Origin: Pontibacter mangrovi
GTDB taxonomy: Bacteria > Bacteroidota > Bacteroidia > Cytophagales > Hymenobacteraceae
NCBI RefSeq assembly: GCF_006385705.1
Contig: NZ_VFRQ01000001.1
Span: forward strand, 1-64,000
Direction: 5' to 3'
DNA length: 64,000 nucleotides
Shown here: piece by piece, positions 25,673 through 29,033 of the stretch
Layout of the letters: each line of letters starts with the position of its first letter
Numbering within the stretch: position 1 is the first letter of the stretch
Notes under the pieces: model-generated
Databases searched by the model: none
What the model was told of the DNA's origin: nothing
Seen by the model: only the letters and a program-made list of their open reading frames with translations
Program-made: the position numbers and the translations under genes

Positions 25673-27145
25673 TTATAAATCTGACAATGCGATTTTTGCT
25701 TTGGAGTCGATGCTGTTCTTGTATTCGTGCTGCCTATAGCTAAGCGCCTTTTTAAAGTATTGGCGGGCTCTGTCAGGCTGGCGTAGTTCCTGGTAAATAT
25801 ACCCTGACTGCAGGCAGGCGCTTGGCGCAAAGTATAAGTCTGTGCCCTGGCACAGGGCAATGGCTTTTTGGTATAGCGGCAGCGCCTGGCGCAGCGAGTC
25901 GGTGCCGTGGAGGATGCGGGCTTTGCGGTAGTAATACTCTGCCTGCACAGCTTTCAGGGTGAATTTGTTTACCTGCAGTTGCCCGAGCGCCTGCAGGGCT
26001 TCCTTATAGTAACCCCCATCGGAGTGGAGGCGTGCCTGCATCAGCGGCTTTACCAGCGGTTCCTGCCTTAGGGCATACTTAGCGGCGTAGCGGTCTTCCT
26101 CGGTTTCCTCAAGTCCAACTTCAGGAATTTGCTGCAAAAACCACTGCGCCTGCGGTATATGGCCATTAAGCGCGTATGCTAGGTACAGTTTATAGTTGGC
26201 GGCCTTCAGGTAGTGCTGCCCCTTGTGCAGCTGCAGGAACAGCCGGTTCTCCCGCACAGACTGCGCATACTCGCCCCGGAACAGGTACAGGTCAGCAGCC
26301 ATGTGGTGCAGGTACGGGAAAGAAAGGTACTCCTGGCTCTTGGGCCGGTTTAAGTATGTTTTCAGCGCTGCCTCGCTAGACTGCGTTTTCTTGAGCAGGT
26401 GCATTGCGGCAAACTGGAACAGGAGGTTGTCCGGCTGCCGGGTAGCTATGGCCTCAACCTGCCGCAGCGCCTGTCGCTCCTGGTCCGGGGCCGTCATGTG
26501 CAGCATCACCGTGTGCAGCAGCTCTGCTTCCTGGTTGAACGGGGCATTGGCCGTAGCGGCTAGCCGGAGGTTTTCCATGCCTTGCTTGATGCTGCCCTGC
26601 ATGCCAATAATGCTTAGGAACCATTTATACTTGTCCGGCACCGACCCGATGAGCACCTGCAGCACGCCAAGACTCTTTTTATAAGAGGTAAAATTAGGGT
26701 GCTGCTCTCCGATCTCTCTATACTTCAGGTAAGCCTTTCGGATGTCCCACGCAGCAGATAAGCGGTTGCCGAATAGAACTTTAGAAAGCCCGACCTGAAG
26801 TCTAACTTCTGCCTGGCCATACTTCGCCCATACTTCCTGTACAGGTAAATCCTCCAGCGTCTGTAGCCGCTTCTCCTGCGCTTCCAGGAGCGCATCATAC
26901 TTTTGCTGGTCCTGTTGCACGCACAGCTCCAGGAAGTCAGCGTAGTTTGCCAGCAGCAGGTTGATGGGGTTTTGGGGCTCTTGCTGCAGGTGCGGTTTTA
27001 GCAACGTTCTGCCGCGGGCTACTTTCAGTTTGAGCAGCTCCTGGTAAACAGCGTTGTGCCGGGCAGTGAACACGGGAGAGGCCACGGCAGCCGAATGGAG
27101 CAGCGCCAGAAGCAGCAGCATAAAAAAAGGATGGGGGTTAGCCAT
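25673..27145 (-). CDS. Secreted tetratricopeptide-repeat protein
   Basis: About 490 residues, with a hydrophobic signal segment (FFMLLLLALLHSAAVA) then helical repeats of TPR type, the clearest near the C-terminus (QSGYIYQELRQPDRARQYFKKALSY). The function is unknown. The start is uncertain: the ATG at 27145 lies inside a terminator-like hairpin, an ATG at 27121 lies just after it, and in-frame TTG codons at 27166 and 27181 would add a basic KKR stretch before the signal segment. The gene reads straight into pabB. Confidence 0.75.
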   Translation of the reverse strand: MANPHPFFMLLLLALLHSAAVASPVFTARHNAVYQELLKLKVARGRTLLKPHLQQEPQNPINLLLANYADFLELCVQQDQQKYDALLEAQEKRLQTLEDLPVQEVWAKYGQAEVRLQVGLSKVLFGNRLSAAWDIRKAYLKYREIGEQHPNFTSYKKSLGVLQVLIGSVPDKYKWFLSIIGMQGSIKQGMENLRLAATANAPFNQEAELLHTVMLHMTAPDQERQALRQVEAIATRQPDNLLFQFAAMHLLKKTQSSEAALKTYLNRPKSQEYLSFPYLHHMAADLYLFRGEYAQSVRENRLFLQLHKGQHYLKAANYKLYLAYALNGHIPQAQWFLQQIPEVGLEETEEDRYAAKYALRQEPLVKPLMQARLHSDGGYYKEALQALGQLQVNKFTLKAVQAEYYYRKARILHGTDSLRQALPLYQKAIALCQGTDLYFAPSACLQSGYIYQELRQPDRARQYFKKALSYRQHEYKNSIDSKAKIALSDL

Positions 27146-27155
27146 CCTTTTTTTT
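27122..27155 (-). terminator. Terminator-like hairpin overlapping a start codon
   Basis: On the minus strand AAAAAAAGGATGG and CCATCCTTTTTTT pair around a 7-base loop, followed by AT. It lies 43 bases after the zinc-ribbon gene stop, and the ATG at 27145 of the next gene is in its 5' arm. Confidence 0.75.
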
Positions 27156-27197
27156 ATTGTATGCAAGCGATTCTCGCTCAAGATTGATACGTGGGTA

Positions 27198-27929
27198 TTA
27201 GCTTACGCGCAGTTCTACACCGGCAAGTATACGGCCGCAGTGCTCGCAAACGATGATTTTCTTCTGGGCAGCAATATCGGCCTGGCGTTGCGGCGGAACC
27301 GTGTTGAAGCAGCCTCCACAGGCATCGCGCTTTACAGATACCACGGCAAGTCCGTTTCTAACGTTCTTGCGGATACGGGTATAGGCGCTCAGCAGGCGGT
27401 CTTCTACGCCGGAAGCGGCCTTCTGGCGCTCATCCTCCAGCTTTTTCTCCTCCTCCTGGCTCTCAGCTACGATCTGCTCCAGCTCTTTCTGCTTATTTTC
27501 CAGGTCCTTGCGGCGTTCTTCCAGGCGGTGCTTGGTGCCTTCTATTTCGCTATTTTTCTGCTCTATCTGGTAATTGGCCTCTTTAATTTTCTTCTCAGAG
27601 ATCTGGATCTCCAGTTTCTGAAGCTCAATTTCTTTGGTGATGGCGTCATACTCGCGGTTGTTGCGAACATTCTGCTGCTGATCCTCATACTTGCGGATAA
27701 GGCTTTCCGAGTCTTTGATCGCCTGTTTGCGCTGCGCGATAGAATCGTTCAGGGCGGCTACCTCATCATCAAACTTACGAACCCTCACTTCATAGCCTTC
27801 AATCTCATCTTCCAGGTCCTGCACCTCTTCCGGCAGGTCTCCTCTTACGCGTCTTATTTCATCAAGCTGTGAATCGATGCTTTGAAGCTTATTTAGCGCT
27901 TCCAGTTTGCTGGCTACAGTACTTTCCAT
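27198..27929 (-). CDS. C4 zinc-ribbon coiled-coil protein
   Basis: A 243-residue protein. Residues 10-180 form a long antiparallel coiled coil rich in E, K and Q. The C-terminus is a four-cysteine zinc ribbon: CGGC about residue 203 and CEHCGR about 228. This layout matches the CT398-like/zf-RING_7 family, which binds nucleic acid or protein partners; the exact role is unsettled. Its start is three bases after the stop of the Nif3-like gene, a pairing common in Bacteroidota and other bacteria. Confidence 0.88.
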   Translation of the reverse strand: MESTVASKLEALNKLQSIDSQLDEIRRVRGDLPEEVQDLEDEIEGYEVRVRKFDDEVAALNDSIAQRKQAIKDSESLIRKYEDQQQNVRNNREYDAITKEIELQKLEIQISEKKIKEANYQIEQKNSEIEGTKHRLEERRKDLENKQKELEQIVAESQEEEKKLEDERQKAASGVEDRLLSAYTRIRKNVRNGLAVVSVKRDACGGCFNTVPPQRQADIAAQKKIIVCEHCGRILAGVELRVS

Positions 27930-27932
27930 GTA

Positions 27933-29033
27933 TTAAAAAGTGTATCTGACGGGGTTAGTGTTTACTTCTGATATTAAGACTGCAAAATTAGGAAAACTTT
28001 TTGAAATAACGTCATAAAATATCTCCTTTGTGTATACCTCGCTTTCGTAGTGGCCGATGTCGGCGATCATCAGCTGGCCTTCTGCATCGAAGAATTCATG
28101 GTATTTCACATCGCCTGTTACAAGGGCGTCGGCGCCTTGGCGCAGCGCGTCTTTTATCAGGAAACTGCCGGCGCCGCCGCACACGGCCACCCGCTTTACC
28201 TTTTGGTTGCCGATTGAGGTATATCGCAGGCCCTGCAGCTTCATTTTCTCTTTCAAATAGCTCAGAAACGCCTCCTCGCTCAGTTCCTGCTCCAGTTCCC
28301 CGATCATGCCGATGCCAACTTCCTGGTTCTGGTTTTCGAGGTTGTAGAGGTAATGCGCCACCTCCTCATAGGGGTGCGCCTCTTTAAGGGCTGCCATAAT
28401 TCTGCCCTGCAGCACCGCCGGAAACAGAAGCTCCAGCCGGTTTTCCTGCACCTGCTCAGCTTGGTTGGCGCTGCCAATAGCCGGGTTTGCCTGCTCGGAA
28501 GGGGTAAAACGGCCTGTGCCGGTAACGCTGAAGCTGCAGGCGCTGTACTCGCCAATATTGCCCGCTCCCGCCTTATGCAGCGCTGCCAGCACCCCATCTG
28601 TCTGCTCCACTGGCACAAAGGTTACCAGTTGCATCAGGGTTGAGGGCTTCGTGACAAGGATGCGCTGCTGCCGAAGGCCCAGTTTGTCGGCGATCTTGGT
28701 GTTCACGCCGTGCAGCACGTTGTCTAGGTTGGTGTGGCTGGCGTAGATGGCGATGTTGTTTTGGATGGCCTTGATGATGGTGCGCTCCACGTAGCTGCGG
28801 CCCGTGAGCTGTTTCAGCCCTTTAAAAATGACCGGGTGATGCGCCACCACCAGGTTGCAGCCTTTCGCCAATGCCTCCTCCAACACTTCCTCGGTGCAGT
28901 CCAGGGTTACGAGCACGCCGCTTACCTCTGCGTTGGCGTCGCCGGTTTGCAGGCCGGCGTTGTCGTAGCTTTCCTGGTAGCGGAGCGGGGCAAGCTGCTC
29001 CAGCAGGGCTGTTATGTCCTTTATTTTTGTCAT
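27933..29033 (-). CDS. Nif3-like dinuclear metal center protein
   Basis: A 366-residue Nif3/YbgI-family protein, which forms hexameric toroids with two metal ions per subunit. The ligand motifs LVVAHHPVIFKG and ASHTNLDNV are in the N-terminal half and VTGDVKYHEF with ADIGHYESE in the C-terminal half. The CutA-like insert between the halves (about residues 130-240) explains the length over 250. The precise reaction is not established. The ATG at 29033 is preferred over a 26-codon longer frame crossing the divergent promoter region of lpxK. Confidence 0.92.
   Translation of the reverse strand: MTKIKDITALLEQLAPLRYQESYDNAGLQTGDANAEVSGVLVTLDCTEEVLEEALAKGCNLVVAHHPVIFKGLKQLTGRSYVERTIIKAIQNNIAIYASHTNLDNVLHGVNTKIADKLGLRQQRILVTKPSTLMQLVTFVPVEQTDGVLAALHKAGAGNIGEYSACSFSVTGTGRFTPSEQANPAIGSANQAEQVQENRLELLFPAVLQGRIMAALKEAHPYEEVAHYLYNLENQNQEVGIGMIGELEQELSEEAFLSYLKEKMKLQGLRYTSIGNQKVKRVAVCGGAGSFLIKDALRQGADALVTGDVKYHEFFDAEGQLMIADIGHYESEVYTKEIFYDVISKSFPNFAVLISEVNTNPVRYTF

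Follow-up and report, generated by a model that had tools for sequence, protein, structure and literature searches.

At one gene junction of Pontibacter mangrovi, a transcription terminator appears to double as protein-coding sequence. The best explanation of the data is that the terminator of a Zn-ribbon gene has been kept as the signal-peptide code of the following TPR gene, the translation of which would start at a TTG codon ahead of the hairpin, giving the TPR gene a built-in attenuator. This reading, drawn from comparison of sequences, is given a probability of about 0.68. The window, that is, the whole stretch of DNA analysed, comprises 64,000 nucleotides, and unprefixed coordinates refer to it. 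The features involved are the following.

27933..29027, minus strand: DUF34/NIF3 gene, first in the row (Pfam PF01784, E 4.7e-82)
27198..27929, minus strand: CT398-like coiled-coil/C4 Zn-ribbon gene (Pfam PF02591, E 2.4e-14; the match to CT398 falls under Pfam's cut-off)
25673..27181, minus strand: TPR gene, 502 codons counted from TTG, with a predicted hydrophobic, signal-peptide-like N-terminus encoded across the terminator
27179..27181, minus strand: TTG, most likely the TPR start codon, 16 nt past the Zn-ribbon stop codon
27167..27177, minus strand: small palindrome GCG-N5-CGC just within the TPR gene, present in 38/41 genomes with the TPR gene
27122..27154, minus strand: intrinsic terminator hairpin flanked by an A tract and a T tract; in-frame reading KKRMANPHPFF
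27143..27145, minus strand: ATG in the 5′ arm of the hairpin, probably TPR codon 13 and not a start
27119..27121, minus strand: ATG past the T tract, not conserved (TTG in many relatives, no start codon in some)

Reality and terminator character of the hairpin

On the minus strand, the sequence between the Zn-ribbon and TPR genes reads A8-GGATGG-CTAACCC-CCATCC-T7-ATG. A preliminary description had recognised a terminator-type hairpin here, flanked by A and T tracts and reaching into the first part of the TPR gene; sequence, folding and scoring bear this out. The ATG at 27145 is indeed seen in the 5′ arm when the minus strand is read, and the further ATG that had been reported directly after the T tract lies at 27121-27119. 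The hairpin is real and far beyond chance. None of 200 dinucleotide shuffles of the 101-nt region folds as well as the native sequence (z −2.8), in a test that used the plus strand of a hairpin with tracts on both strands. Under one scoring rule, a score of at least 28 is reached by all 41 Pontibacter junctions that carry the TPR gene and by none of 205 shuffles, by all nine Pontibacter junctions devoid of it (0/45 shuffles) and by 48 of 51 loci outside Pontibacter (1/255 shuffles), while none of the 50 control windows at the NIF3-to-Zn-ribbon junction attains it. The finder used is ungapped, and the hairpins of loci L112 and L216 (T run of 4; bulge), which it missed or scored low, were recognised by eye.

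The hairpin has the attributes of an intrinsic terminator, namely a G+C-containing stem with a T tract directly after it and a location close past a stop codon, independent of the gene that follows. The distance from the stop codon to the stem and T tract is 17-52 nt across 141 loci, and stem energies are alike in Pontibacter with and without the TPR gene (median −13.4 and −12.8 kcal/mol, respectively). A consensus terminator scan lists the hairpin on the plus strand only, which we take to reflect the counting of the T tract into the stem on the minus strand. A search of Rfam with window positions 27000-27350 yielded no family above its gathering score, the best being SpF25 with 21.1 bits against a cut-off of 48 (E 0.37). 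On the plus strand, a 272-codon ORF (27054-27872) runs antisense to the Zn-ribbon gene and crosses the hairpin; it is probably a by-product of codon bias.

Genomes with and without the TPR gene

A pattern search detects the hairpin at the same place in 50/50 Pontibacter genomes, of which 41 possess the TPR gene and nine lack it. These genomes are related, so that this and the following counts are not independent. Three genomes (G023, G008 and G028) were counted as lacking the gene despite weak TPR matches (E 4e-5 to 7e-4), and loci L002-L025, which duplicate genomes of the genus set with the exception of L023 from another genus, were counted once. The Zn-ribbon gene is present in 23/23 genomes queried. 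The preliminary description held that its idea would fall if relatives had lost the hairpin and kept the same start, and no such case was found among the 50 Pontibacter genomes.

The hairpin is most readily understood as the Zn-ribbon gene's terminator, not as a device of the TPR gene, because it is kept where the TPR gene is missing: a GGATGG/CCATCC stem follows the Zn-ribbon gene in all nine Pontibacter genomes devoid of the TPR gene, and GGATG-type stems do so in 12/12 such genomes of genera g3 and g6. In genus g2 (L023, L070, L143), the Zn-ribbon gene ends in its own terminator, which differs in sequence, and the TPR gene is separated from it. Outside Pontibacter, nine loci have a TPR gene with no Zn-ribbon gene adjacent to it (L109, L124, L121, L127, L128, L212, L215, L217, L220), and such a hairpin occurs in 0/5 of those scanned, the first five listed. 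On the Zn-ribbon gene tree, five changes of TPR presence are needed, at least two of which are forced by firm branches. The nine Pontibacter loci without the TPR gene are L129-L137, and in some of them (L131, by eye) a signal-peptide-like frame persists behind the terminator.

Start codon and reading frame of the TPR gene

The TPR start is most likely TTG 27181 and not ATG 27145, as judged from conservation of the frame and of the predicted signal peptide. An in-frame TTG (30 genomes), ATG (10) or GTG (1) is located 36-42 nt before the stem ATG in all 41 Pontibacter genomes with the TPR gene. Earlier, the in-frame TTG codons of the window (27181 and 27166) had been credited with supplying the basic residues of a signal peptide; they do so, as SENRLHTIKKRM, and the conserved position in 41/41 genomes makes the upstream TTG option the better start. 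An alignment of relatives had been suggested as the way to learn which start is kept. The stem ATG is kept in 41/41 genomes, as expected if it were the start, but so is the upstream TTG, ATG or GTG. Counted from the upstream start, three to six K or R residues precede the hydrophobic stretch in every genome with the TPR gene. The stem ATG seems to be a mere consequence of the terminator's sequence, because the same stem is kept in genomes that lack the TPR gene.

Just past the start, the palindrome GCG-N5-CGC occurs in the same frame in all 38 of the genomes with the TPR gene that have it, and also in 4/9 genomes without this gene. The codon immediately before it is TTG in 28 of the 38 genomes and ATG in one, and in the remaining 9/9 an ATG (8) or GTG (1) lies one or two codons upstream. 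The palindrome is kept although the first residue it encodes varies. The idea of a recurring operator was rejected, as the wider GCG-N5-CGC motif has a single occurrence in the P. mangrovi genome.

In 41/41 genomes with the gene, no stop interrupts the TPR frame between −36 and +78 relative to the stem ATG, while from −36 to the stem ATG the other two frames contain stops in 39/41 and 13/41. In this frame, the hairpin would encode the basic and hydrophobic parts of the predicted signal peptide, KKRMANPHPFFMLLLL. As expected of an attenuator, the terminator lies within the path of the open, presumably translated, frame in 41/41. Of the nine Pontibacter genomes devoid of the TPR gene, six have an in-frame stop. 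The loop measures 7 nt in 41/41 genomes with the TPR gene and 6, 7 or 9 nt in those without it (7 nt in 4/9). This association gives a Fisher p of 6e-5 when relatedness is ignored and is not significant after correction for relatedness (two independent pairs on firm branches), because changes of TPR presence on firm branches are too few.

The 3′ arm is read as the codons CAT CCT TTT TTT in 29 of the 30 genomes examined among the 41. Elsewhere in the TPR gene, CAT and CCT encode only a minority of the His and Pro residues (197/459 and 129/527 codons, respectively), and TTT accounts for 264/461 Phe codons. The single exception, CAT CCT CTT TTT, places a new C opposite a G of the 5′ arm; the same G is found in several relatives, where it faces T.

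Layouts in other families and genera

The same layout, built with other stem sequences, is found in families f15 and f19, and at single loci of f9, f20 and genus g3; the relatives that share it are taken here to form part of the order Cytophagales. In f15, 17/17 loci have an in-frame TTG between −4 and +12 relative to the Zn-ribbon stop, and the terminator is read as, for example, KKRATILVRPFFILFF. One f15 locus (L117, genome G375) has a one-base break of the frame past the hairpin, in a second, homopolymeric T run, which may reflect a genuine mutation, slippage or a fault of assembly. Of 14 loci from f19 and a close relative, 13 have the start at −8 to +4 of the Zn-ribbon stop, nine of them as a TTG inside the last Zn-ribbon codons; the terminator encodes KKAGITTCLFLL and similar stretches, and locus L106 has no start codon at the expected place. 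Two of the f19-like loci (L026, L027) come from Cyclobacteriaceae. The f20 hairpin is imperfect and scores low. Because the layout recurs with different stems, there is strong evidence that pairing and frame have both been kept, as far as comparison of sequences can tell.

Other relatives are arranged differently. Sister genera g4 and g5 keep a strong terminator with a start codon after the hairpin in 26/26 loci, 15 of which have no start codon before or in the hairpin; the overlap is thus not needed for TPR expression. In f11, among eight loci where the Zn-ribbon gene adjoins the TPR gene, the start follows the terminator in four (L115, L116, L123, L125) and three (L219, L221, L222) are compatible with either start position. 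The finder detected no hairpin at L223 (f11) and L214 (f16).

Proposed mechanism

In the preferred reading, the hairpin would be the intrinsic terminator that ends the NIF3/Zn-ribbon transcription unit, and the downstream TPR gene would read it as signal-peptide code, with the A tract giving Lys/Arg, the stem a short linker and the T tract Phe/Leu. Translation would begin at the weak TTG beside the Zn-ribbon stop. If this upstream start is used, full-length TPR mRNA must contain the whole terminator and could arise only from polymerases that pass it, and TPR expression would therefore depend on read-through. The fraction of polymerases passing would set a low TPR level, below that of the Zn-ribbon protein. 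Relief may come from a ribosome that, on completing the Zn-ribbon gene, starts anew at the TTG and crosses the hairpin close behind RNA polymerase, and without such a re-initiating ribosome transcription would end at the hairpin. Transcripts ending there would have no stop codon in the TPR frame, making frequent starts costly, a cost that, we infer, fits the preference for TTG.

In E. coli, intrinsic termination is repressed by ribosomes that follow RNA polymerase closely (PMC4824070). In the one direct test of this geometry that was found, a construct with terminator tR2 placed 30 bp after an AUG, translation from this AUG cut termination by only ~10% (PMC4824070). Gating by ordinary initiation would accordingly be weak, and the principal possibilities left are re-initiation and a fixed leak. 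As a tentative extension, the site may form a translation-gated switch in which re-initiation at the TTG opens the terminator, the signal-peptide role dates from early Cytophagales, and an exported protein is tied to the translation of its cytoplasmic partner.

Alternative explanations

The preliminary description favoured a start at ATG 27145, with a hairpin that could hide this start and couple the two genes, which now seems unlikely. Beyond its conservation in all 41 Pontibacter genomes with the TPR gene, the stem ATG has an A-rich upstream sequence and an A at −3, a context favourable to initiation in another bacterium of the phylum (PMC6847099), and in many f15 loci the corresponding stem position is a GTG. 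However, TTG 27181 likewise has A at −3, the upstream frame is kept, without stops, in 41/41, and the same ATG-bearing stem exists where no TPR gene follows. Counted from the stem ATG, moreover, 23/41 proteins would enter the hydrophobic stretch without a preceding K or R, and hence lack a basic n-region, and the 5′ arm has no start codon in f19 loci (L110 has an ATG at its base) or in f15 loci L114, L119 and L122. That the hairpin hides the start is not supported: the likely start, TTG 27181, is 27 nt outside it. Still less probable is a plain intergenic terminator, past which the TPR gene would start at ATG 27121 or, in many relatives, at a TTG, the open frame being incidental. Such is the layout of g4 and g5 and of half of the f11 loci, but Pontibacter keeps the upstream frame and start position; three of the 41 genomes (L052, L064, L069) have no ATG, GTG or TTG in the 27 nt past the stem core, and 0/41 have K or R in the ten codons counted from the end of the T tract.

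It might also be argued that no terminator exists and that A and T tracts arising from K-rich and F-rich codons pair by chance, AAA and TTT codons being natural in signal peptides. This is very improbable, as the hairpin persists without the TPR gene, other families keep the pairing with other stem sequences, and none of the 205 shuffles reaches the score. The most serious competitor, with a probability somewhat short of even, accepts the overlap and differs on its control: the terminator would be leaky and unregulated, a fixed fraction of polymerases passing without involvement of the ribosome. It is consistent with the finding that a terminator less than 100 bp into a coding region acts almost independently of translation in E. 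coli (PMC4824070) and with the similar stem energies of Pontibacter with and without the TPR gene. A fixed leak nevertheless leaves unexplained why the start is so constantly at the Zn-ribbon stop and so often a TTG (30/41 Pontibacter; 17/17 f15).

Search for further cases

A scan of 464 kb (the window and 400 kb of genome) returned 68 strict terminators, six of which are traversed by a long open frame, namely the TPR site, its own plus-strand reading and four others. No second case of a terminator read as the start of the next gene emerged from the 464 kb scanned. The most promising candidate, at G000:C1:188324-188357 (plus strand) before an alpha/beta hydrolase gene, was rejected since its hydrophobic reading is not repeated in the nine relatives examined: in five (L177-L181) a stop separates the hairpin from the gene, two (L175, L176) are open through the hairpin without repeating the hydrophobic reading (L176 is partly hydrophobic), and two (L182, L183) have no such hairpin in the stretch inspected. 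The terminator at this site follows an S46-peptidase-like gene, named by eye. The three other candidates, assessed in the P. mangrovi genome only, were dismissed on account of a long gene in another frame (C1:224409), a downstream stretch antisense to the 3′ end of a groEL-like gene, identified by eye (C1:16619), and, for a minus-strand candidate, the gene's own ATG about 100 nt later.

Significance and comparison with known systems

If the preferred reading is true, one natural, long-conserved short DNA segment would be both a terminator and the code for a secretion signal, and expression of the downstream gene would require a 'stop' to fail. Terminators composed of an A tract, a stem and a T tract would then be ready-made signal peptides in the right frame (Lys-rich, then Phe/Leu-rich), and the TPR site suggests how they could be recruited as such. 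The coupling of transcription and translation in Bacteroidota would be directly testable at a single site. The start codon and signal peptide of the TPR gene are predictions, and automatic annotation could easily choose the stem ATG or the ATG past the T tract as the start. No description of a terminator encoding a signal peptide was found in the titles and opening lines of abstracts of the open-access literature searched, which is a weak negative.

The E. coli ampC attenuator is the terminator of the frd operon, located ahead of ampC and relieved by ribosomes. As in that system, the terminator of one unit would attenuate the next gene at the TPR site, and binding of a ribosome reportedly perturbs the ampC hairpin. 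The ampC terminator is situated in a leader before the gene, whereas that of the TPR site lies inside the coding sequence and would encode a signal peptide. As with the leader-peptide attenuators pyrBI and trp, a ribosome near the hairpin would decide between stop and read-through (for pyrBI, PMC4824070). Unlike them, the TPR site has no separate leader peptide, nor a ribosome site in an untranslated leader; its frame is continuous with the gene, with no stop near the hairpin. The synthetic tR2 construct has nearly the same spacing (30 bp after the AUG, as against 27 nt from the TTG; PMC4824070); it was built in the laboratory and relies on de novo initiation, whereas the TPR site is natural and conserved, with re-initiation as the proposed route. 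With an ordinary intrinsic terminator after a gene, the TPR site shares the stem and T tract past a stop codon, and it differs in that its hairpin is read in frame as the N-terminus of the next gene's product. Both the terminator that acts as attenuator of the next gene and the translated leader are known kinds; what sets the TPR site apart is a terminator that would belong to the coding sequence of the gene it attenuates and encode the export signal.
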